Assembly (NCBI GenBank): GCA_029706075.1
Contig: JAINUG010000308.1
Coordinates: 186,001-250,000 of the forward strand
Source of the DNA: Aldrovandia affinis
Taxonomy: Eukaryota; Chordata; Actinopteri; Notacanthiformes; Halosauridae
Reading direction: 5' to 3'
DNA: 64,000 bases
Position numbers and translations under genes: made by a program. Below the pieces are notes generated by a model. It was not told where the DNA came from. It worked only from the letters and a program-made list of their open reading frames with translations, and did not search any database. This document shows, in pieces, positions 7,832-44,916 of the stretch (the stretch's first letter is position 1; every line of letters starts with the position of its first letter).

Positions 7832-10800
7832 GCCATTTAGCAGACACTTTTATCCAAAGCGACTTACAGTAAGTCAATGCATACATTTTTCAGTGAACCC
7901 ACAACCTAAGTGTTGCTCTATCTACTGAGCCACACAGAACCGCACACCCATGCTGCTGTCACAATTGTCATCAAACTTGTTAAGTTAAGTTGATTGAAGG
8001 AGTAGCCATTTTATACCTTGTGAGCCCCAAACTAGGGATGCTAATTTTAAGAAATTTCCATGATCGATCGTCACCCACGTTAACAAACAATTAATTGATT
8101 CATCTTCTTAAAAAAAAATAACAACAGCAAAATGTAGCGTATGACAGAAAATACAAAATGCACGCTTTATTCAAACTTTTGAGACACGGGCCTATTTTAA
8201 CAGCATAAAACGATAAGAATTATGAAGGAAACCCTATTCAGTAGGCCTAACAACGAAAACAATATTCCTTTTGAAATGAAAAGGGCTGTCCAACAGTGGA
8301 GGCTTGGCAACTTGGTAAAAAAAAAAAAAAAAAGCCTATGATTTCACCAAAAACGCGGAAGTAACATTAGGCGTGCTTAGTGAATTCAAGAGAACACGCT
8401 ATTGTCGGCTGAGGTAACGTTAAGCTATACAAAATATTTTGTGAAATATTGCCAAATATATTTAATAAAATCAATTGCCGCCCCGATGGCACTCCCGACC
8501 AGAGCCGACTCTGGCGCGACGGGGAATCAAACCCCGGTCGCCGTGGCCAGCGTCGGACATTGAAACCACTAGACCACGCGGGAGGCCGATCGATCAAATT
8601 CTTAACGGCGATTCATTGATCATCGATTAATCATTAACATCCCTACCCCAAACATTATAAATGTATCTAACTGACCAATAGGTATTTCTTTATTTCTTTA
8701 TTATAGAAGGAATGAAAGGCCATTTAATTAGATTAAGATGCACATTGCCTACGTGAGTAATCTGGTGTTTTTAAGGCCCCTGAGAAATTACCGGAGCAGT
8801 AAAGTGCACATCTGGGTTTATAGCTTGATGTCAAAGTACAGTGAATTGGAGTTAGGTAGATAGGTTTCTTGTCGTGGGCGTGGATATCTGTCAATGTGTG
8901 TAATTTAAGCATACAGCAGTTCAGTAGAGTCCAGGGCTGCATTGTCATTTTTCACTTTCTATTAGTAATCCAATAGCCATCAGTTCATTTTATGGCGTAG
9001 TCTAATAAAATGACTACACCATGCACAAGCTGTGGTGAACAGAGTTGCCAGATGCCAAATCCTCCCTCTGAGCACAAAAAAGCTGTATCAGCATTAGTCT
9101 CCTCTACAGGAAAGCTATCTAGCAAAGGTCTCATGTTTCTGTTTTTGCTGACAGAATGGAAACGTGGCCACAGCTCTGTCTTGTGACTGAGATGACAATG
9201 ATATTGCTCAATTCTGACCACAACGAGCTACTCGAGGTGACTGCTATTTCCTCACTGTGGCTGCTGTGCAGGCTGGACAGCAATTAGAATTCTCCCCAGC
9301 CATGCATTCTAAATGTTGCAGTCTTTAAAAAAAAATATAATATTTGTTTATATATAAAACAATGAAAATGTCTGTGCGTGTATGTATGTATTACAGACAA
9401 ACACTATGTTTTAAGTTACAGAGCTAACACTGCTGAAAAAGCAGGGAAATGTATAAATAAAAGCTTGAAAGCAACAAAATGTGAAAATTGTGCAAGGCAC
9501 TATAAAATGTATATACATACACACACACACAGTATACCCCTGCAGAACCAACTCCTGCAAATGCGATTTACAGGATCACCAACCTCATTTATATGTCAAT
9601 ATATAATTGGAGAGGCGTGCTGAAAATACTGTCTGCAAAAACAGTTATGGTCTCCATTGAGGAAAAACATTTTTGGAGAAGGGCGTGGCAAGAGAAGATA
9701 TCTCAATTCGGGATAGGTAAAAGTACAGTAAGACATTTAAAACTAGGCAGATGCCATAAAAATGTAGAAACTATTTTCGGTCATAAATTAGCCTTTTTAA
9801 AGTGGTTTCTTGAATAGATTAATTTGCGCATATTCACATTTTGAAATTGTGTCGACTCATGTTTATTTTAAATCTTACTGGTTTATAAGACCTTTCATAT
9901 TTTCATATTTCCGTTTTGGGATAAAAATATTTTTTCAATTATATTAGTATAGAATTTCCCCATTTTTTGAGCAAACAATATAGCTTATTGCCTGTATTAT
10001 TTATTTTATACAGCCTTCTTTGCTCATCTTTATCAAGAATATGAAGAGATTTTGGAGGGTAAAATCAAAGATTTTATGCTTCTGCTGAACTGGTATTACC
10101 AGTGCTGACTGAGGCCGGCGGCCCTGCAGGGCCTCACCATAATTGGCTGTTGCGGCACCCAAACTGAGTGTTTCGGTCTCCTGAATTGGATGTTGTACGG
10201 ATGAGACGGGATTGGGCATTCCAAACTGGGAGGAAAGGAAACGGGAGGAAAAAAAGAGTGCTGAAAAAAAGGTGCACTGTAACCCAAATGAAAAATATGA
10301 TTCATTTAATATGAACAACTTATGACCGTTGAAAACAAGTTTAATTCCCATTTTGATCAGCAAATCATAAGGTGCACTGTTTAATTGGGATATGGATTAT
10401 GTTGGAATAATACATTTCATATAACATTATCTAAATTATACATTTCATTATATATATGATTTATTTTATCAGAATAAATCGTACTTTACAGCAACTGCAT
10501 TTGTCACCGTCTAGTTTCATGAGTGCCACTTGTCTATTTGTTTAATGCATTTTCTGACTGCCAACAAAAGTAGGTTGGATTTATTGGTCATTTTGCTTAA
10601 ATCTGTGACACCATTGCTGTTCCGGCTGCTGTTTTGCAGGGAAACTGTATGGACGAGGCTCCACTGATGACAAAGGCCCAGTGTTGGCTTGGTTTAACTG
10701 CATCGAGGCTTACCAGAAGATCCAGCAGGTACTAGTGGAAAGGGGAATCCAGCCGATCAGAAATGCTGATATTCATTGAAACTGAATCCATCCTCTGTCA

Positions 10801-17700: not shown

Positions 17701-20700
17701 GTAGTTTATTTACTGACAGTCACTGACAATGCTTAGGATGTGGGTTCGTTTCCCATTGGGGCCACATACTGAAAAATGCATGCATTCATTACTGTAAGTC
17801 GCTTTGGATAAACGCGTCTGCTAACTGGCATATATAACCCGACCATAGTATCCCTCTGAAGTTCTTGATGAAACTGAGCTCAAACCAATGCATGGATATC
17901 ATGGTCAAGAAGAATGCGTTTCGACCACAGTTGCCCCTAGTTGATGTCTTTCCCTCAGACGCCAACATCATCGTAGCCACTATTCCTCATGACACATCAG
18001 CAAGTTAAGCAGACTTCCTCACTCCTGCCAAACCTTCCCCAACAATCACCCTTCTTTCAGTCACTTAGATCTGTTATTTGAGCTATGATAGACAAAATAA
18101 TGTGCAACTGGGACTGCCCAGTGTTTTATACATGACCCTAAGCATGATGGGATATATTTTGCTTAATTAACTCAGGAACCACACCTGTTTGGAAGCACTT
18201 GCTTTCAATATACTGTGTCCCTCATTTACCCAAGTGTTAGTTTGGCAGTTACCGGTTTATTTTTATTTTTATATATATATATATATATAATTAAAGACCA
18301 CTCAAATCCTTTGGATAGAATAGCATAAATGTAAAAATAGCATTTTCTTGTTTTCCTTGTCTGTTGCTCTCCTTGGAACAGTGCTTTTTTTGGTTTCTTT
18401 GCATTTGTGAAAGTTTAGTTGTAACTTGCCACCATTTTGATATAAATAATTTGGTTGATTAATATGGCATTTTTATATATATTTTATTTTAACATGCCAT
18501 ATGAGTAGTGTGCAGGGGAATGTATTTGATAAAAGCCAGTGGTTAAATCTTAGTTCATATTTCTGTATTGCTTTTTTGACATGACGAGGGTGGTTATATT
18601 GTTATTCTTTTTCCCCATTAGGTGATCAGCCACCTGCAGAAGAAGTTTTCTGAGTTTGAGAGCCCTAATAAACTGAAGGTGTATATGGGCCATGGGGCCA
18701 AGGCTTGGGTATCAGACTTCAACCATCCCCATTACATGGCTGGGAGAAAGGCCATGAAAACAGGTAGGGCTCTAGTCCAACTTCTACACACCGACCTACA
18801 TGCAGACACATACTGTAATCCATATATATATAAGAACATAAGAATACCTCATGAGGAGAACAGACCAATTGGCCCATCTAGGCTCGTCATTTACCTACAG
18901 TCTAGTCTAGAGAATATCCAGCACTGCATGAAGCCTGGATTTGAATACCCCAAGTGTCTGTGCCTGTTCTGAATTTACCTTGAAATAATCCTGTGCCCCC
19001 TTGCTCTTCTGACAACTCAACCTGAAAAATCTTTGGTAGTTCACTTTGTTAATCCCTTTTATGAATTTAAAAACCTCAATTAAATGCCCCCTTAGTCTCC
19101 TTTTGTTCGGCTTGAATCAATCAAGTGTCTTAATTCTTTCCTTGTAACTTTTACCTTTCATACCAGGAACCAGTTTGATTGCTATTTGTATTTGTATGCC
19201 TTTTGAGCAGATTGGTGCATAGACAGTGGGTATAAAAAGTATTCACCCCCTTTGGCATTTTTTTCTTCTATTTTTGTTGTTTATTCCCATTTTTCCCATA
19301 ATTTTCCAATTATACCCTCTCTTTTTCATGTCAATTATCCCTTCCCTCATATGAGAACTGTCGTAGTCCCAAGACCGGTAGTCCTGCAGCACTACTCCGA
19401 GCCGGAACCCGCCTAAGCCGCTGTTTACAGCGTTTGTCAATGGGACAGATTTGTGCATGAGAAAACACTATTTAAAAAAAAAAAAAATGGAGTATTAAAA
19501 AAATATAAATATATTTTTTCTAGAAAACAACTTTGGGGGAAAACTATTTTATTTACCATTTCAAGTTTGTGGATTAATATTTTTAAAACCGAGTGAACTG
19601 CCTAGCTATAATTAACTGGAATGAAATATGTGTTCGTTCACAAGGCATCCGTTGGATCCGATGTTAAAGTTTTCACTGTTTTTTCAATGTTGTCAGTGTT
19701 TGGGGTGGAGCCGGATCTGACTCGCGAGGGCGGGAGCATTCCTGTCACCCTCACCTTCCAAGAAGCCACTGGACGCAATGTCATGCTGCTGCCTCTGGGT
19801 TCCTGTGACGATGGTGCACACTCACAGAATGAGAAGCTCAACAGGTAATCCTTCTCCCTGTTAGTACAGGCTCCTGCTGCATGACTCATGCAGTCACCAT
19901 GATGCTAAGAGTGGTGAACAGCAGCTGTGTCTCAAACCGTGTACTTCCATGCCCTGAGGGAGCATAGCGAGTACACAGCCATGATGATATGAGTTTGACT
20001 CCAAACTGAGGAAAGGTAGCAATGGATAGAGTGCCTGGACACGTGTTCCATTTGCCTACAATTTCGGGCATGTATCGCTTCATGCAAACATCCGGTCATT
20101 GTTTTATTCTTCAAATAAAAGTCCATAAAATAAATGAAATGGTAAAAAAAACATAATACATAAAAATGGATCTAAAAACAAGGTATTGTATAATCGATAT
20201 TTAAGAGTCATAAGAGATTTTTCAGTTTGCTTTTAAAATTACATATGTCGGCCGTCATGTCGGCTTCCCTCCCCCCTCCCTTGGGCGGACAGCCAATCGC
20301 CACCCCTGGTGTCACTCCCGGCCAGAGCCGACTCTGGCGAGACGGGGAATTGAACCCCGGTCTCCTTGGCCAGCGTCGGACATTGTAACCACTGGACCAC
20401 ACGGGAGGCCAAATCTTTAAAAAAAATGTTTTTAATTATATTTAATTAAGAAGCAGCAAATCCAGTTGCTGCTGGGACAGTCTCTCCAACATTAGGAACA
20501 GACCAGCTGAAACATGGGTTCTTAACAGCTTTGACCTTTCCCATTGTTTAAGCGGTTTTGTAAAAGGTTTTTGGGAAAGGTCTGAGCGGTAACATGGTTT
20601 CTTAAACACTAGAAACTATCCAAACAGTAAAGCGGTTTAGTAAACGCTGGGGACTGTCTGAGCAGTAAAGTGGTTTAGTAAATGCTGAGTATAAGCAGTG

Positions 20701-26088: not shown

Positions 26089-29000
26089 TCATTTATAGGC
26101 ATTGGCTTTGTGTTTAGGCAGAAAATTGAAGTTCTGAGGCACTGGTCCAAGCAACATTTCACTGTGAGAGAAAAAGGTAAATTATTATACATTTCAGGGA
26201 GATACATAAAAATGAAAAAGCACGACAACTACAGATGAAATGGTGGCCTACTTCATGCAAAACTATTAACCAAACAGTTAACAGTCCTGCTCAAATAAAC
26301 GTTTAATGAAATTGACTATTCAGGCATCCCAACAATCAAATCGTTACTCTTGAGGAATGTTTTTAATACCGCAAATCCAATGAAGTCTCACCTGATTTTT
26401 ACCCAGTCACCGACATGCTGGCTCGCCATCAGACACTCCAGATAGTCCCTCCCCATGTAATATGGGGGTCGCTCATTAATCTTCTGTGGAACATGCTCCA
26501 GCAGTCCGACTGGAATATATCTGAGCAAGGAAAACATGGCAACAATCAGAACCATCCAAAAATGTCTAATGCTGGTTTTTACTATACTTTGCTGTAGCAT
26601 GGGTGACAACTCCAGTCCCTTTTTTCTCTACCCAAAATATTATAATTTTATCCTTGTTGCGTTTGTTTCTTGCACCATTGCAGTGTAATAACTCAAGGTT
26701 CTGAATGTTCTACAAACTAAGATGTTTAGAATGTTTATTACAACAAATATTTATTCCTTCATATTACTGAAGACTAACATCACATGTTCACTAACCGCTG
26801 GTTATTATAACGTTGCAGATCAAATCAAATCAAATCAAATGTATTTGTATAATGCTTTTCACAATAGAATTGTCACAAAACGCTTAACAGATCCCTTGAC
26901 AACCCTACCTGCACATGAAGGACAGCCATTCCAGCAGGAACGTCCTTGTCTTCTCTAGGCCCTGGCTGTCTGAACCCCAGTGCTCCAAACCAAAATGTGT
27001 GAAATCTTTCAGGATGTCTAAGCGTTCACCAGAGGAAATGTCCCAGTGCCTCTCTTCCTTTATTTCAGTGAAAAGCCATGGCTTTATAAGAGCACCTCTG
27101 TGTGGGGAAGAGGAACAATGTTTGTTGACTGCCAATGGTATGAGACATTGCAGATGAAAAAGGAGTTAAAAAAGAGTTCCAGAAGAAACTCTGCATGCTG
27201 AAGGCTTCAGTGGTATATTCTAAAATAGTATATTACTTACTAGTAGTAAGTACTTTAGTAGCATTAAATGTGGTAGTAGCCATAGTACAGTAGATCATCT
27301 GAGATACAAACCTCAGAGTTAAGGACCGATAGGTCAACCAAATGCAGTATGAACCTGAAGTGTCATACGCAACTGCTCTTTATTATCACTTGTGCAAAAA
27401 TTCTAGCATTAAATCGAAACAAACATTTCACTGTGAGAGAAAAAGGTCATTATTATCAATTTCAGGGAGATACATAAAAATGAAGAAGCATGACAATTAA
27501 CTACAGATGAAATGGTGGCCTACTTCATGCAAAACTATTAACCAAACAGTTCCTACTGCTCAAATAAACATTGTTTAATGAAATTGAGTTTATTCAGGCA
27601 TCCCAACAATCAAATCGTTACTCTTGAGGAATGTTTTTAATACCGCAAATCCAGTCTCACCTGATTTTTACCCAATGGACAAACTTTCCATTGAAAATAG
27701 AAAATCAGCAAAAAGGTCAAGTGTTTGACATAAACATCAGCCAGAATAATATCAAACCTCAGTAATATAAATCGGGCTAATCCGTGTTTTGCTTTAAAAG
27801 TAATTAATAAAATCTTAAAACTGAATTCTAAAACCTACAGGGCAGCCAGGGTAGGGATAATGTGCTCTCTTGTTGGTCTTTGTCAAAAGCCTAACTGCTA
27901 AATTTTGCACTAGTCTTTTAACAGATGCACTCACCTATTTCTCAAAGAGAGGGATGTTGGATATCTAGTTTTTTGATTACGCTATATGAGAGAACATGAT
28001 GTGTTGATTTTAAGTTATTGGTTCAGAAATAAACTTTCTGTAGAACAGTAGTTTGTGCCTTCAGCAAGCAAACTAGTATTACCTTGCTAACATGATTCCA
28101 GACACTCCTGTTTCCCTGGCTTTCATTGCATCCTCGTAAGAAAGAATATCCCCATTACCTGTTGGGAAAGGAGATTACGTTTTTCGCTGGTTTGTACCGG
28201 ATTCTACCATGCAAAAACATGGATATACAAATGTCTAAGAAAAGGTTTCTGTATTCACCAAAAAGTGGGATAGGACTGGCCAGTTTGGAGCAGGTGTCAA
28301 TGTAGTCCCAGTCGGCCAACTTTGTGTAACGTTGCTCCCGGGATCTCCCATGAAGCTGCAAAAAGACACCAGGGTTTTCCACCGAAATCAATATACCACA
28401 GGCTGCAGTATGCACACATGGGACATGGACTTACTGTGATCAAGGACACACCCCAGCGTTTCATCTCTGGGATGAGTTTGTGAGCAATGTTGACTTTGTC
28501 CTGAACGCCAGTCCGAATTTTAACAGTTAAAGGGACATCCAGCACCTGTGGGAACAGACAACCAACTGTCTGAAAAAGTGGTTTTGCATCTCACAATAAA
28601 TCCACACAGAGGTCTCTTAAACCTTTTTTTACTCTGGGCTGTCCCACTGGTATAAATGTCAAATATCATGTGATAGAAAATATCAGAAACTTGCTGGTAA
28701 TATAATGAAGGAAAGCCACAGAAACATGCAAGCTGTCTTTACCATACATGGAGAGAAAAAAAGATTCTCCACTTGGAATAAAACAACAGTTTAAGAGAAT
28801 ATTTTTGTTGATGAGCTTTAAAAACAGAAGCAAACTTGTGCATTAGCTGAATTTGCTACCTGTGAGGCCCTAGTCCTAGGTGCAGTGCCACACCCCATGG
28901 TCTAGTGTTGAATCCTGACTGTAACTGTACCACAGTGGGACTCCCACAGGGCAGCTCATAATTGATCATAACATCAACCATCATCTGCACATGAAATGTT

Positions 29001-32000
29001 CTCCACCACAGTGATTACTCAGCTCAGCTGGGTGACTGAAGAGTGAAAATACGCTTTGGAGGACAGTATGGTTTGTGCTCGTCTGCGCTCTCCTCAATGA
29101 GACAGGCTTACAAATACTGTATGTTTCTGAATACAAAATTGGCAGAGAAGTAAATAAGAAATTTGAGGGGGAGGAAAAGCAGAAGCCAGTTACGCAATTG
29201 TTAGATATTTCCTAGGCTATGAATATGGTGCTTTTTATTACTGAAACTTTTTTTATATACATTTTACAAAATCGTGTAGTAATTGATGTTATTCGTAATC
29301 ATGGTTAAATTTGTCAACGTTTTGTTTGACTCACCGACTTCATTCCTTTGATGATTTGCTCAAATTTGTTAGTGCGAGACATCAGTCCGCAACCACCACC
29401 CTTGTTAAAAGATATTTACAGTCAGTAAATACTCTTTCAAGGAAAGAAATGCCCAAACCAAACAGTATAGCACTTGTAATCCGCAAAGGGAATTGAGAAT
29501 GATGTACATGATACACACACCTTCTTGTACACAAGGTCAATGGGACAGCCTGAGTTGATATCCACAAAGTCAACTTCAATGTTGTTGTTGAGCAGTTCTG
29601 CACACCTCGTCATGGTGTCAGGAAAGCAGCCTTCTACCTGAAACACAATCGCATGCTTATTTAACTTCTTTTTTTTTTTTTTAAAGGTGAAAATGTTTCT
29701 GTTGAGATTTATTATATACTTGCTGGCGTTATTATATTTAGCCTTGATAAACTTGACGGCTGACAACTAAAATTACCTCACAAAATAAAATTGCAAGTAT
29801 ATCACTACATTATTTTATATCACAGCCACAAAATTATGACTGCCTGCTGCTGCAGCTGCTATGATGTTAGCTAGCATCAGAGATATAGACAAACTGAAAT
29901 TAAAACAAAATTAAAATAGCTACTGAGTGAAGTAACCATAGCTTTCGGGCACAGTAAAGTACGCTTTGTTAATTTGAACATTTTAATGGCCAACGTTGTT
30001 AACTTACAGCTCTCTGGGTCCACTGATCACTAGCACCACACAAGATGGTGTTTCCCATGAGTTAATAATTTGTAAAAGAGGTATGACAACAGGTTATTGT
30101 TTATAGGGCTGTCCCCAACTAAAACAAATCTTGGTCGACCAACAGTCATCCGGTTTTTTCGATTGGTCGAAACGTTTTTTCTATATTTGTTTGAATAAAT
30201 ACAACTATATGCACACTGCGCTTGTCTCGTGTTTTATAACTTTCAACTTTCTTAAGTGAATGACACAAATGAGTAACAATAGGCTAATGACTTTATGGAG
30301 TCGGAGTTCAAGATTACCTGAAAGAAAGAAAAAAAAGATCGGATTTCCCTGTCGGACTTGTTAATGTTTACTTGGGGATGTCAATAATTCGTTTTCTATT
30401 CAATAGGTTGATTATCTCAATTCCTGTGGCCAACAACTTTTTTTCCCCATTTAAGCAATGGGAAAAGAGACAATAAAAGAGGTATCAATAATTTGGTACA
30501 CAGATAGGTATGATAGGCAATGTGTAGTGCAGTTGTATTGAATGGCATACCCAGAATTGTAAGCTAATGTTAACATTTACAATGTTGAAAGTAATGTTTA
30601 CCGAGTTCAGAAAAATAGGACTGAAACCAACTGTGTGTGAGAACATCAATCAAGACCACAATCACTGCTAAGCTAACTCTTGCAATAATTAATAGCACAG
30701 CTAATGTTAGTGAAGAGCTCCGCAACCTTCTATAGGCCCCCGCTTGGACGCTACTGCAAAAGCATTTTGCATGCGCAAATTTGCAATAATCAATTAGTGG
30801 TATAATATTCAAATACTGGGTAGTACTGATTAGTCGATTAGTCATCCCCGTCCCAAATATATGCCAGTTATTTGAAGAATCAGTTATAAATTTCAAGACT
30901 TGTGTACCTAAACTGTAACCAAGGTATTGATTGTTCTAACCTGTACACCAAAGAGGTCCTCACTCTCATGCCTTTTGAGTAGAGCCCATTCTGAAGACTG
31001 GCCCTGCAGGAGATTGGTGCACATGGCCATTTCTCCACAGGTGATGGCCATTTCTCCACAGGTGATGTCACACTAGAGGCAAAGAAAAGCAACCATGGAA
31101 ATGCGCAGGATTACATCCAAGGGAAAAAAGTTGTACTTACAGTTGCGGAAAGGTAAGTTTCCACACTAGATTGGCATAATATATAAGAAAAGCAGGCTGT
31201 TCCATGGAAAATTACAAGAAGGTTTTTTTACAACCAGGATCTCATTCAAGTCCAAGGGGAAAAAAGTTGTCAGTACTTACAGTTGTTAAAAACCTCAGAG
31301 TTAAGGACTGTGCAACCAAAGGGATATGAAACAGCTTATCTTTAAAATCCACCTTAAAAAAAAAAAAAAAAAAGTTGAAATATTTATTGTATTGCAAATA
31401 AAAATATTAATAACATAATATATAATGACGAGACCAGGCTGTTCATCATTTCCTGGAAAGAACATTGAGGTGACATTGAACATTGAGGCAATCATAATAT
31501 ATACTTCTCCTTTACAAATTAGTTTTTATCCAAAGTGTTCTGAACTTTAATACCTGCTGTTTGTGTACAATTCCAAATAACGACAAGTTTTTCCATCAAG
31601 AAACTCAAACCAACGGATACAAAACAATTTATTTACTAAATGTGCCCTGCATCTATGCAGTATAAGCCTCACCTTCAATTAACAAAATGCATCAGAATTG
31701 AAATAAAGGGTAAACTTACTTGCTTCTTTTCACAAGGGCGCAGTTTTATGATGTCAACATCGGTCAAAGCACCAATAGTCTTAACAGGCGATGGCTCCTC
31801 CTGACATTGCTGTGACTCCGCAAGTGAAGGTATTACAGAGGAGATGGCTATCTTACAATCTTCCATTCCTGTCTCAATCAGGGGCTCAACTGGGGCCAAC
31901 TCCTCTGCTGTGCAGCACGGAGCCTGTTCTTTTAGCTTCTCCTCAGTGGCCTCCTTTTTGGTATTTACCTGATTTTTCCCTTTGGCGATTGTCCTCAGGT

Positions 32001-34840
32001 ACTCCTCTGAGGCTTTGAAGCACACCTGCCTCTTGCGTAGCTGCCTCTGGAGGTCTTTGTCCAAGCTGTTTTTCACTCTCATCCTCTCCTCGTTAGCCTT
32101 CCACAGATCTTCATTTACCAAGTTCTTGAAATCCTCGCTAGTGTGCGCTTTGGCATATCTGCACGTCACACCGTAGCGGCATTTCCCAAAGCTGTCAAAC
32201 AAGTAACACCGTTCCCCTATATCTGCAGGCTTCAATTCCATGTACTCAGAAATGTCATGGAGAAATTTGCATTTCTCTCCATAGAAGCATTTGGTGGTAC
32301 GCTCCTGAATGCATAAAAAAATAGTGTTTAGATGACATCTATGTACCAATTCAGGTTCTGTAATTCTGTTTACATAAATGCTACATACTATAAACTTTTA
32401 CATTTACACAGGGATCTCAGCAAACATTTACACAGGGTTCTCATCGCTTGCTTAAAAGTGAGAGAGCAGGCCTCCCGCGTGGTCCAGTGGTTACAACGTC
32501 CGACGCTGGCCACGGAGACCGGGGTTCAATTCCCCGTCTCGCCAAGTGTCGGCTCTGGCCGGGAGTGCCACCAGGGGGTGGCGATTGGCTGTCCGCCCCA
32601 GGGAGGGGGGAGGGGAGCCGACGTGACGTTCGCTGCGTAGAGTGGCCCTGTAGTACCGGGTTACGGTCGACAGCCTGCGGGTGCCGTCTCGTAAGAGGCG
32701 TCACTTCGCTTCGTCACTACCGGTCGCAGGACTACGGCAGCGAACTCACATTACTAGGGGGGGATTGACGTAAAAAATAGCGGGTCTAATTGGCTACCAA
32801 ATTGGGAGAAAAATGGGATAAAATCAGAAACAAATTTTAATAAAAAAAAAAAAAAAAAAAAAAAAAAAAGTGAGAGAGCAGACAGCAGAAAATCAGCGTC
32901 CCATTGATTGGGATACTATAAGTGGAGCACAACTCATTATATTACGGGTGTAGGATTAATGATTCCTGCCATAAACTAAGATGGAATGATTAAGCACTAG
33001 TGATTTGTGACCTGATTGTAAAATGGATCATTGTATTGGCCTTTATCATTGTAGAAGTTCTTCATCATACCATTTACATTTATAGGGGATATTTCAAAAT
33101 TATTCCAAACATCATTATCTATAAAGTGATAAACAAGGTTACTTGATTGCTTTTTTCCCCTTTTTCCTGATTCGGAATGCTCAACCGTATTCTAAGCTGC
33201 GCTTGCTGCAACCTCCACTGTCAATTCGGGAGAGTGTAGACAATCACATGCTCTCCTCCGAAACACGTGATGTCCGGCACTGCTTCTTTTCACCACACCA
33301 CACACTAGTCTACAAGTTAAGCTTGCAAAGACATGAGTCAGATGAAGATGCTTCATGAGCAACTCCATACAAGGAGACCATGGGTGCCCAATTGACCAGC
33401 AGGGGTCGCTGGGGTACGATGAAACATGGAAAACCCGGCAGACTGAATCCATCCCCGGGCAACGCTACCACCAATTACGTGTCATCCTGGGTTTCAGTTT
33501 TAAGTTTCAGGAAAAATTATGGTATAACTTCATTTGTTTTCAACAACCTTAATTGATCAAGTGATTGACTAACAAAAACCATAATATATAATGGGTTCCC
33601 AGGACCAAGTTTGGGAGCCACTGATCTACAGTAAGTGTAGCCGCGGTAATCAAAAACATGCATTCTTATGCTTTGCTAACACGTTTCACTCCACCACAAG
33701 CATGATGGCTAACAGGCCAGCAAAACTAATCACATGCTGTTGCATTTCATGCTGGCCAGTTCTCAAACTTGGTCCTGTATAATTAATTTCTCGGTGTGCA
33801 AAGAAAATATTCACATGGTTACTATGGCAACAGTGAGCAGAAAATAGTAAAGAATCTTATTGGGAACTTGGCACTTAGAAGTGGTATGGCCACCCATGCA
33901 GTGGTATCCCTGCATGTACACATTTTTTCTGTCCTTTCATACCAACCATAGCAGTGATAATACCAGTATTGTACATGCTGCAATGGTTAGACTTGACCAT
34001 TCACAACAGGGACTCATTGTGCTTTAACCAGACAATGCCATGATCAGCAAAGATGTACATATATTGCGCTCACCAAGTGTACCATCAGTGGTTGACATGT
34101 GTCATTGTTAGCTTTTGTAACTATAGCAGATAGAATCAATTCGTTTCAGGCTTATGTCAGAGCAGACTGCAATATGTTTTTGGGTTGCAACAGCTGTAGT
34201 AGCCATGTCAGCATGGTCATTTCCAGACATTATGGTAATGCTGCGTTCTCACCAACCAATGACTGCAATCAAGATGATGATCTTTACTACATCAGTTGGT
34301 AGAAACAAAAATGGGCAAATTCATCATGGTGAGACACTTTGGATTAAGAAATCTTTAAACTGCGTCTTTCATAAATAGTTTTGAATTGGCTTACAAATAG
34401 TCTTTTTTCAATAGATAAAATACTTCAGTACCTGCACTATTGAGGGACAGAGCCTTTTCTCATGGTAAGTGTGTGGTTTCATATGAGGCCTGCACTTGAA
34501 CTGCCCTCTTTCTTTCTTTCTGTTGCGTTTCTCATCTCCTTGCTGTGCTTCCCCTTCCAGTTTTATCTTCTTTTCGACAGGCTCCTCAGTCAATGGTTCT
34601 ACGCCATCTTCGGACTGACCAACATCACCCAGCCTTCCAGAGTCCACCATCTCATGGAATTTCTCCTTGGTTGTGAGATATCTACAAACACAAAAAATGG
34701 CATTTCATGAAGAAAGCATAACAAATGCAAAATTGTTTTCCCAGTTTAAATATCTGAACTTACTGTTTCTTGATGGCAGCTGTGCCTTTGTAATTATCAG
34801 TCATTTTAACAGCCCCGTTGGTGCCACTTTCCTCCATCAT
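26089..34840 (-). CDS. dus3l: tRNA-dihydrouridine(47) synthase 3-like, with rearranged barrel exons
   Basis: DUS3L reduces U47 in the tRNA variable loop using FMN and NADPH. Exons in reading order: 34840-34764, 34681-34432, 32304-31720, 31352-31281, 31165-31141 (25 nt, doubtful), 31072-30941, 29637-29521, 29400-29335, 28545-28435, 28355-28259, 28158-28083, 27097-26909, 26520-26392, 26161-26089 (TGA). The N-terminus ([13 protein letters not shown]) has an in-frame upstream acceptor tttcag. Two CCCH fingers are visible: [19 protein letters not shown] and [23 protein letters not shown]. The barrel motifs are [18 protein letters not shown], then GGGCGLMSR with the catalytic Cys, [26 protein letters not shown] and GNGDILS. 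The C-terminus is [10 protein letters not shown]. Without the 25-nt exon the frame is open for about 657 codons, close to the human length. The start of the barrel is abnormal (see 30941-31352), so function is uncertain. Confidence 0.88.
26153..26405 (-). repeat. dus3l last intron, source or partner of a 253-bp duplication
   Basis: This block covers the final intron (26162-26391) plus 9 nt of the last exon and 14 nt of the penultimate exon. It is about 90% or more identical by eye to 27422-27674 in the same orientation, with a few small indels. Confidence 0.85.
27422..27674 (-). repeat. ectopic copy of the dus3l last intron
   Basis: This is a second copy of 26153-26405, lying within the intron between exons 28158-28083 and 27097-26909. 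It keeps both splice sites: CAG|gtgagac near 27661 and ctcacag near 27431. The spacing between copies is 1.27 kb. Confidence 0.85.
28865..29100 (+). mobile_element. degenerate tRNA-derived SINE
   Basis: The blocks gtgcagtgccacaccccatggtctag, gactcccacagggcagctcataattg and cagctcagctgggtgactg resemble a tRNA-headed SINE body and partly match 11752-12020. It lies in a dus3l intron. Confidence 0.45.
30107..30862. mobile_element. hAT-like MITE remnant
   Basis: The left edge reads agggctgtccccaactaaaac and ggtcgaccaacagtcat. The right edge reads gattagtcgattagtcatcc with ccgtccc. This pattern (ggctgtcccc..tcgac..tagtcgatta) is a common fish MITE. The ends are imperfect and no target duplication was found. 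It lies in a dus3l intron. Confidence 0.5.
30941..31352 (-). pseudogene. dus3l: rearranged dus3l exons for the first barrel strand
   Basis: Vertebrate DUS3L reads ..GKLYLAPLTTCGNLPFRR then ICKRFGAD-TCGEMA here. In this window exon 31352-31281 encodes VDFKDKL, then 10 extra codons in place of the YLAP motif, then LTT. The next piece, 31165-31141, encodes CGNLPFRN and stops at gtaagt. The CKRFGA codons are missing. Exon 31072-30941 then gives CDITCGEMA followed at once by a second ITCGEMA. Splicing all three puts a stop after the join, whereas skipping the 25-nt piece stays in frame. The lost LAP motif touches FMN in this family. This may be decay, an allele, or an assembly error. Confidence 0.7.
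32470..32865 (+). mobile_element. full-length tRNA-Glu-headed SINE with target duplication and poly(A)
   Basis: The head (cctcccgcgtggtccagtgg, ccggggttcaattccccgtc) has A and B boxes like tRNA-Glu. A GC-rich body follows, then a tail with ctaccaaattgggagaaaaa and a long A tract. The target duplication gtgagagagcag occurs at 32458-32469 and 32870-32881. The perfect duplication and long poly(A) point to a recent insertion. It lies in dus3l intron 2. Other copies are at 8465, 20248 and 42115. Confidence 0.9.
33185..33440 (+). repeat. dispersed repeat, long copy
   Basis: It contains ctccactgtcaattcggg, gacaatcacatgctctcctc, cgaaacacgtgatgtc and later ccaattgaccagcaggggtc. Its first third is repeated inverted at 13130-13215. 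It is probably a SINE or MITE shared by many fish genomes, and the class is uncertain. Confidence 0.55.
33590..33785. mobile_element. small inverted-repeat MITE
   Basis: The edges are ggaccaagtttgggagccactg at the left and, inverted, gttctcaaacttggtcc at the right. A single end of the same repeat is at 25165. Confidence 0.5.
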
Positions 34841-34904
34841 GCCTTCTGAAATACAAAAGCACAAGAACTATAAATGACAAGAACAGGAACAGCCATTACG
34901 GAAT

Positions 34905-36580: not shown

Positions 36581-37793
36581 CACTGCCTGGCCAAAAAAAA
36601 GTCACCACCTGGATTTAACTAAGCAAATAGGTAAGAGCCTTCCATTGGATAATTACTGCAGTGATTCATATGTTTTAGCTGGCAACAAGTTATTTAACCC
36701 TAACTGATGCAGTGAGTAGCTTCTCATTTCTTAAACAACCATGTCGGAAGACATATCCTGTGGTCGTGGAAAAGATGTTAATCTGTTTCAGAAGGGTAAC
36801 ATTATTGGCCTGCATCAAGCAAAGAAAACAACTAAGGAGATTGCTGAAACGACTAAAATTGGGTTAAGAACTGTCCAACGCATTATTAAAACCTGGAAGG
36901 ATAGTGGTGAACCATCATCTTCGAGGAAGAAATGGTTCACCATCATTTTTTTTGAATGATTGTGATCAGCGATCACTTAAACGTTTGGTGAAATCATATC
37001 GTAAAAAATCAACAGTAGAACTCACGGCTATGTTTAATAGTGAAAGTAAGAGCATTTCCACACTCACAATGCGAAGGGAACTCAAGGGATTGGGACTAAA
37101 CAGCTGTGTAGCCTTAAGAAAACCACTTGTCAGTGAGGCTAATCGGAAAAAAAGGCTTCAATTTGCTAGGGAGCATAAAGCTTGGACTCTGGAGCAGATT
37201 TACCCAGTTCCAGAGTGATGGGCGCATCAGGGTAAGAAAAGAGGCGGATTAATTTTCACATCATGCCTAGTGCCTACCGTACAAGCCTGTGGGGGCAGTG
37301 TTATGATCTGGGGTTGCTGCAGTTGGTCAGGTCTAAGTTCAGCAACGTTATGTGCCCAAAGAATGAAGTCAGCTGACTACCTGAATATACTGAATGACCA
37401 GGTTTTTCCATCAATGGATGTTTTCTTCCCTGATGCCACGGGCATATTCCAAGATGACAATGCCACGATTCATCGGGGTCAAATTGTGAAAGAGTGGTTC
37501 AGGGAGCATGAGACATCATTTTCACACATGGATTGGCCACCACAGAGTCCAGACCTTAACCCCATTGAGAATCTTTGGGATGTGCTGGAGAAGACTTTGC
37601 GCAGCGGTCCGACTCTCCCATCATCAATAAAAGATCTTGGCGAAAAATTAATGCAACTCTAGACGGAAATAAATGTTGTGACATTGCAGAAGCTTATCGA
37701 AACGATGCCACGGCGAATGCGTGCCGTAATCAAAGCTAAAGGCGGTCCAACTAAATATTAGAGTGTGTGACTTTTTTTGGGGGACGGGCAGTG
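36581..37793 (+). mobile_element. Tc1-like element, nearly full length, frameshifted
   Basis: Ends are cactgcctggccaaaaaaaagtcac and the reverse of a matching copy, each next to TA. The transposase starts MSEDISCGRGKDV at 36741 with a helix-turn-helix (IAETTKIGLRTVQRIIKTW). It is broken near 36920 by a short duplication of atggttcaccatcatt-type sequence, and again near 37200 where the first catalytic Asp should be. The C-terminal part at 37270-37662 keeps [23 protein letters not shown] (second Asp) and [17 protein letters not shown] (Glu). It is inactive but young-looking. Confidence 0.9.
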
Positions 37794-38349: not shown

Positions 38350-39540
38350 TACCCATACAGGTGAGTGCAAAACACACCATGCCAAGATTTAAGTAGTAGA
38401 CTATTTGACTAGTCTTGGTCCATTACCCCCCAAAAAATCGACACTGGTGCTGTAAAGGTGTAAAGACCAGACTAGTGATTTTGTGTTTTGAATGTAAAGA
38501 CCGACCAAGTAAAATTGTCTAAATGCAAACAGTAAAAATGCATTTGTGTGTGGCTGCCAACTGCCCTAATTGTTCTGTTAAATTGGAGGAAGCAAACTCT
38601 GTGCCATAGAGGGCCTTGTGCATGCAGGATTTCTTCCAACATTACTGCCTTAACTACTCATTCAGCCATATGCATGTACCACTGTGCATTTGTTATATTT
38701 ATCATGGGTTGTCATGAAAACATGTATAATGTTGAACATGTATTATTATTATTATCATCTAATGTTAGCTTAGTTACATTTTCTGATATCAGGGAAGTCC
38801 AATTCCTAAACTCGAGGATTAACTGTCAAAACAGTTTGCCATAGACGTCAGTATTCTTACTATCTGGGTTACATGCATGTTAGCAAGCCGATTAAATTGC
38901 CAATGCTAGCAATGCTATTATCTTTGGATAAATTTATACGTGTTTGCTAGCATCAAGGCGATAATATTATCGTTAAATTACCATTTCTTTCATTGTAGCA
39001 TAATGTTGGTGGGAGTGAAACATATCTTTACCCTCACTGTTCATGATTTGTGTTTTTCGGTGTCCTTCTGTTCGCGAGCTCACATTAGCAGCGATTGGTA
39101 CGTCATCATTCACAAGGTTCAGTTATGGATATTCCAAAACATACGCGTGTACTCGCCAACGTTAAGAAAAGAAAGGACACATCGGTGTGTCAGTACTTGC
39201 TAAAAGGGCTACTAGGCCTGGCTATCAGGCCATCGAACTAGCTTGTCACTGTGAATTAACACTACAAAGGTAGTTTGTGATTTACAAAACAAAGGATATT
39301 AATTCGTTGGAACGAAATCGTGTTAAACGGTTAGATGCATTATGCAGATGCATATGGTTTCCTAAAATTAATAGCTAACTAAGTTACATTTATTCAACGA
39401 CTGTACTTGCCGCCTACATAATTGTAGGAGCTAATCATGCTAAACTCTCTAAAATAATCTCAAATATTATAGCTATTATATTAATATATAATAGCTAATA
39501 TTCCTGAAATTATAGTTTTAAGGCTAACCTAAAAATAAAG
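38350..39540. other. upstream of dus3l, nothing recognised
   Basis: No gene or clear element was seen. The open frames at 38548-38844 and 38940-39203 lack known motifs. Confidence 0.4.
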
Positions 39541-42114: not shown

Positions 42115-42375
42115 CCTACAGTGGCCAATGTTCAACGCTGGCCACTGCGACCAGGGTTTGATTCCACTGGCTCAGAGTCGGCTCTGGCCGGGAGTGGCAC
42201 TAGGGAGCGGCAATTGGCTGTCCACCCCAGGGAGGGGGCAGGGAAGCCGACATGAATTCGCTGCGTATAGGAGTGGCGCTGGAGTACCGGCGTTATGGTC
42301 GACGGCTTGGCGGGTGCCGTCTTGGAGGAGACGATACTTCGCCTTTGTCACTGCCGGTCTTTGGGGGGATTGACA
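42115..42375 (+). mobile_element. tRNA-Glu-headed SINE, diverged
   Basis: It shares ggctctggccgggagtgg, ggcaattggctgtccacccc and gccgacatgaattcgctgcg with the full copy at 32470. The head is mutated and the A tail is lost. Confidence 0.75.

Positions 42376-43485: not shown

Positions 43486-44916
<1,431 letters not shown>

Follow-up and report, generated by a model that had tools for sequence, protein, structure and literature searches.

Scrambled sequence at the barrel start of the recorded dus3l gene of Aldrovandia affinis: a possible assembly or haplotype artefact

The window analysed here is a stretch of 64,000 nucleotides of Aldrovandia affinis DNA. Its minus strand carries dus3l, the gene for tRNA-dihydrouridine(47) synthase (DUS3L / Dus3). 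Our splice model has 14 pieces, from 34837 to 26089 on the minus strand, with gt donors and ag acceptors at all inner ends; all features of the gene given below lie on this strand. E1, with its ATG at 34837, belongs to an exon at 34764..34845 that has a gt donor and an ag acceptor. It is followed by E2 (34432..34681), E3 (31720..32304), the pieces E4 to E6, and E7-E14, which span 26089..29637, are open and encode the remainder of the Dus domain (Pfam Dus). E3 encodes the zinc-finger and linker part (Pfam zf-CCCH_DUS3L), and the CCCH zinc-finger region is of the DUS3L type (PF25585, 75.3 bits, cut-off 30). The deposited protein AAFF_G00233560 (P0001; 663 aa) is 100% identical to the splice model over its entire 656 aa. 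Its 7 additional N-terminal residues fit an upstream exon at 39032..39044 (ATGAACAGTGAGG before gtaaag), with which the coding part of the deposited model probably begins (M-N-S-E). As judged from the letters of the two exons, joining it to the exon at 34845 would probably give MNSEEGMMEES, the start of P0001. The splice model shares 73-79% identity with five elopomorph proteins (P0002-P0006) across the full query, and 80% identity with Albula P0008 over 84% of the query. Elsewhere in the window, the ORF at 37219-37659 (DDE_3) and the ORF at 43787-44254 (Sleeping Beauty HTH) hold relics of Tc1-like transposases, and a minus-strand ORF at 1397-1651 with a GATA zinc finger (PF00320) looks to us like part of a GATAD1-type gene. 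A dispersed repeat family, presumably a SINE, has copies at 32469-32725, 20253-20410, 42119-42359 and 8472-8587 with 80-94% identity between them.

The start of the Dus domain is strongly conserved in relatives. Among the best 120 of 3,550 matches to the 656-aa query, 118 proteins carry YLAPLTTCGNLP(F/Y)RR(I/V/L)CK.(F/L/Y)G(A/V)D(I/V)TCGEMA, a loosened pattern of the barrel-start motif YLAPLTTCGNLPFRR(I/V)CK.FGAD, which is absent from A. affinis dus3l. The two exceptions are P0001 and P0116 from Denticeps clupeoides. In P0116, unrelated residues precede an intact CGNLPFRRICKRFGAD, and the sequence is retained from CGNLPFRR on; this oddity is probably a gene-model error at the same intron, LTT/CGN. 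The CGNLPFR motif also occurs in 19 proteins of no more than 215 aa among the 345 proteins collected. Two of these are spliced through LTT-CGN. In the remaining 17, CGN is immediately preceded by unrelated residues, the last of them Q in 16 and K in one, as would be expected for read-through of a cag or aag intron acceptor. P0244 has VDFQDKLYLAPLTT, a short read-through and then CGNLPFRR. The read-through residues and P0244 suggest that the LTT/CGN intron is ancestral. At the far end, FGVQ-V is found in 16 of the 17 genomic-style reading frames. These frames indicate that CGN..FGVQ is normally one exon of 51 codons, with a computed length of 153 nt.

In A. affinis this part of the gene is arranged differently. 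E4 (31281..31352) is 72 nt long compared to the 42 nt expected from relatives, a net gain of 30 nt or 10 codons according to the splice model and the MAFFT alignment. It is followed by intron A (31166..31280), which has canonical ends and lies at the ancestral LTT/CGN position. The ancestral 153-nt exon is now represented by E5 (31141..31165), a 25-nt remnant encoding CGNLPFRN, and by the 132 nt of E6 (30941..31072), with the 68 nt of intron B (31073..31140) between them. E6 starts with TGT-GAC-ATC, and the in-frame mRNA lacks GNLPFRRICKRFGA (14 codons). If intron B stays unspliced, reading through its donor yields the codons C-K (TGT AAG). Translation of two splice forms gave an in-frame product only with E5 skipped. 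This form is open over 656 aa, whereas retention of E5 leads to a stop at codon 337 of the model. The identity of AAFF_G00233560 with our model indicates that the deposited annotation uses the E5-skipping form. Within E6, an exact 21-bp tandem duplication (31023..31064) encodes ITCGEMA twice. A sequence-only reading of the locus had described most of these features. Its 10 extra codons in place of YLAP between VDFKDKL and LTT, the gtaagt donor at the end of the CGNLPFRN piece, the early stop when all pieces are spliced, the open frame when the 25-nt piece is skipped, and the repeated ITCGEMA are all borne out. The loss that it reported as the CKRFGA codons is wider than stated, as given above.

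That reading had also noted a near-direct repeat of the donor side of intron A and suggested that an intron edge had been copied into the exon. The repeat is real and longer than described, and the copied unit is a whole intron with exon edges. Intron A plus edges (31285-31162) aligns end to end with 31145-31069, which is intron B plus edges; the copied exon edges are CAACT before the donor and TGTG after the acceptor. Intron B is thus a gapped copy of intron A standing in place of the RICKRFGA codons of relatives. The alignment has 74 identities, 3 substitutions and 10 gaps, with every gap in the shorter copy. Its local score is 52. Shuffled sequences scored at most 29 against the partner stretch (2,000 shuffles) and at most 41 against the whole window (100 shuffles). 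The extra part of E4 (31287..31330) also resembles another part of the gene, 27353-27305 in intron 11 (SW score 48, with an exact core of 19 nt). The shuffle maxima for this pair were 26 (2,000 shuffles against 27353-27305) and 37 (300 shuffles against the whole window).

Further copies were found along the gene. The 3' part of intron A (31210-31175) resembles part of intron 3 (31414..31459; SW 40). The two introns share GAACAGCCTG and TTATATATTATG in the same order, the second being an AT-rich string that recurs. The score of 40 compares to a null maximum of 33 (200 shuffles of one 50-mer against the gene region), and this match is weaker for being partly AT-rich. Intron 3 has in addition a tandem duplication just upstream of the lesion, as we call the altered E4-E6 region, with CCTCAATGTTC occurring twice, 18 bp apart, at 31460-31488. 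Intron 13 recurs inside intron 11, at 27422..27674, together with about 14 and 9 nt of the adjoining exons. This copy is 90% identical to 26405-26153 and has exact blocks of 53-63 nt; over a slightly wider stretch the pair shows 237 matches, 10 mismatches and 7 gaps. When the donors and acceptors of the 13 modelled introns were scanned against the gene region, only the E3 acceptor scored above 33 beyond the matches of introns A, B, 3 and 13. Its score of 40 is a poly-T match, and the E3 donor reached 32, below the null maximum of 33.

We searched the window for an intact version of the exon and the protein collections for a second gene. None of the best 30 tblastn matches of the family stretch against the window was an intact CKRFGA exon. 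They were known pieces and scattered short matches, so a missed normal exon in the window was rejected. One match running across the end of intron A was taken as chance; part of it is the recurring AT-rich string. No A. affinis-named dus3l protein beside P0001 was found among the best 120 of 3,550 matches to the 656-aa query, the best 120 of 348 to a 200-aa query, or the best 120 of 144 to a 115-aa query, in a protein set clustered at 90%, where a fragment could hide behind another species. Five signature peptides, one of them (VQVRTIN) encoded in the intron that follows, are absent from every other protein among the 345 collected. The peptides VQVEGCF, which is widespread, and LNNNIEVDF, which is present in one other fish, were discarded as signatures of A. 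affinis dus3l. No A. affinis transcript of the lesion region was recognised among the matches listed; the A. affinis RNA-seq run SRR5306085 and the TSA GFJD00000000 are public (PMC5968573). These results bear on the proposal that the recorded gene is a dying second copy, or a chimera of two dus3l copies, with an intact dus3l elsewhere. Two adjacent intron forms would fit an exchange between diverged copies. However, P0001 is the sole A. affinis-named protein among the matches listed, and the rest of its domain is as constrained as in the other rows of the alignment described below. We consider this proposal unlikely.

What is lost is the beginning of the TIM barrel: when a Conger relative is aligned to the solved Dus structure 1vhn, the stretch pairs with LAPM..FR..GAD. 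For the A. affinis model, alignment to solved Dus chains does not begin until residue 29 of the typed domain, after the lost stretch. The Pfam Dus match (PF01207) of A. affinis is above the cut-off (167.2 bits) and starts at profile position 19, as compared to position 2 in the five relatives tested (179.1-186.1 bits). M19 of human Dus2 is presumably the M of the LAPM motif. In Dus2 this strictly conserved Met stacks on the flavin (PMC9775027). DUS3L has L at the position of Dus2 M19, and the P-L of this first barrel strand is still in place in E4 of A. affinis (MAFFT alignment). AlphaFold models were poor both for P0001 (pLDDT 44.0, 40 rows) and for the control Albula P0008 (43.1, 39 rows). 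If the recorded order is real, the enzyme would be impaired, as far as can be judged from sequence. The earlier expectation of a probably impaired product fits the loss of the barrel start. The near-normal total length, also pointed out earlier, was confirmed. We read it as a coincidence of +10, +7 and -14 codons because the resemblance of the replacement residues to the family does not exceed that of shuffled codons: of 9,397 stop-free shuffles of the replacement codons, 2,144 matched the family as well or better. MAFFT pairs the replacement residues with YLAPLTTCGNLPFRRI with little gap; a homologous rebuilt barrel start was nevertheless rejected, as shuffled codons scored no worse.

These data are relevant to a working gene in which E4 and E6 encode a rebuilt barrel start and the old exon start is now intron. 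The open frame, the near-normal length with E5 skipped, the three net length changes that all keep frame, the constraint on the rest of the Dus domain and the retained P-L would all fit such a gene. On the other side, the new residues fit the family no better than the shuffled codons, the Pfam Dus match begins only at position 19, and the lost stretch is kept by 118 of the best 120 proteins, A. affinis being one of the two without it. A working gene of this kind is very unlikely in our view. Least probable of all, we think, is the specific course in which a recent intron copy intronised the conserved domain start, the intron-like E4 piece supplied replacement codons and the enzyme lives on. 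If true, it would be a naturally occurring example of a catalytic core in which coding sequence was intronised and an exon rebuilt.

To estimate constraint and age, we aligned 40 proteins picked for spread out of the best 120 of 3,550 matches. In the 328 columns of the Dus domain outside the lesion, A. affinis has one unique change at an otherwise invariant site, T578S, and the other 39 rows have 0-3 each. Other invariant barrel residues outside the lesion, for example in the GCP region, are kept. The lesion itself has 14 unique A. affinis changes in 36 columns. Compared to six other elopomorphs, A. affinis has 5 private residues and the others 2 to 8. The normal constraint outside the lesion suggests that the gene was under normal selection until recently, and the contrast of 1 unique change outside with 14 inside the lesion counts against a gene that died long ago. 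The 77 aligned bases of introns A and B include 3 substitutions. If this divergence is neutral, a dead Dus domain would have accumulated about 14 amino-acid changes, and the 5 private residues seen are too few (p 0.004); this value rests on three substitutions and an assumed 75% of non-synonymous sites, and becomes 0.25 at 2% divergence.

The A/B pair also has an unusual balance of changes. Its 3 substitutions to 10 gaps contrast with the 257 substitutions and 59 gap openings counted over 18 further repeat pairs in the window, tandem arrays at 53-63 kb excluded (Fisher p 1.6e-5). The comparison is rough, since the pairs partly overlap and other alignment settings were used. This imbalance makes intron B unlike a normally aged copy, and an error-prone copying event could produce the differences at once. 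The intron 13 pair outside the lesion is also gap-rich, with 8 substitutions and 7 gap openings (p 0.015), and this points to a property of the locus, not to a fault of the assembly. Three readings are left: the record is a mixture of different sequences, the copying was recent and error-prone, or the gene remained useful.

In a real rearrangement, short-range template switching during repair or replication would have copied the intron with its exon edges into the next exon, placed the intron-11-like piece in E4 and doubled the 21 bp. What remains would be a recent and probably non-functional allele, or a gene in early decay. For every piece there is a relative on the same strand no more than 4 kb away, although those of the E4 insert and intron B are imperfect. 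The second copy of an intron with its edges, in intron 11, suggests that such copying has happened before, and intron A shares pieces with intron 3. Weighing against this are the several clustered events it needs, and the expectation that a dead gene of the age suggested by the intron copies should show more private changes. Given how few there are, a real lesion would have to be very young, or a good allele would have to be still recombining with it. We regard a real rearrangement as possible and hold it tentatively. If real, the locus would clearly illustrate how an intron can be copied with its exon edges within a vertebrate gene, and how a conserved tRNA-modifying enzyme is lost or rebuilt.

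The explanation that we place first, with a probability of roughly 0.4, is that an assembly or haplotype artefact has scrambled the E4-E6 region of a normal dus3l in the record. Versions of one short stretch (two intron forms, the doubled 21-mer and the intron-like piece) would have been laid end to end in the contig, and part of the ancestral exon would have been dropped. The reads of this fish would then be expected to show normal YLAPLTT/CGNLPFRRICKRFGAD on at least one haplotype. Several separate anomalies crowd into some 310 bp (31330-31023) of a gene that is open elsewhere, which counts for an artefact. So do the 1 unique change outside and 14 inside the lesion, the substitution/gap imbalance of introns A and B, the shortage of private changes for a dead domain, and the single A. 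affinis-named protein among the matches listed with its unique signature peptides. Other observations count against an artefact. A simple assembly join gives exact copies, and the E4 insert and intron B are exact copies of nothing in the window. Ten gaps in about 120 bp are a lot for a pair of ordinary alleles. Frame is kept by each of the net length changes (+30, -42 and +21 nt); by chance this would happen once in 27 if the three are independent. The gap-rich intron 13 copy lies outside the lesion and perhaps reflects the locus. The repeats differ in divergence, which resembles a history rather than one error. Lastly, the 11 exon pieces outside E4-E6 have no frameshift, so base quality seems good here. 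The normal constraint on the remaining domain favours, and does not prove, the earlier suggestion of an abnormal assembly or allele. None of the titles and abstract openings listed in the literature searches describes how the A. affinis genome was assembled. If the region is an artefact, AAFF_G00233560 carries false sequence at a very conserved part of Dus, which might be mistaken for accelerated evolution in this deep-sea fish.

Compared to other DUS3L / Dus3 proteins, the A. affinis record shares the zinc-finger N-terminus and a Dus domain with the remaining conserved motifs. It differs in that YLAP is replaced, GNLPFRRICKRFGA is missing from the open mRNA and ITCGEMA is doubled. Teleosts are reported to have a higher intron turnover than elephant shark and tetrapods (PMC12357937); the accessible part of that source describes no intron copied into a neighbouring exon. 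Templated insertions at DNA breaks are likewise short insertions copied from nearby sequence, and in yeast they are mostly inverted duplications of 5-34 bp (PMC11724301). In contrast, the A. affinis copies are direct, about 21-120 nt long and several together. Intron gain by tandem genomic duplication preserves the coding sequence. In this process an intron-like sequence arises inside an exon by nearby copying (PMC4974935, PMC3443670), and A. affinis likewise has intron-like sequence copied into an exon from nearby DNA. As for a gained intron, intron B is absent from relatives at its position: 18 of the 19 short CGN-motif proteins are unbroken from CGN to (F/S)GVQ, and the exception, P0326, diverges after LLKRHPL. 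Splicing of intron B itself does not restore the frame, since E5 then brings in the stop. Unlike intron gain by tandem duplication, the A. affinis record has an existing intron copied together with its exon edges, and coding codons are lost.
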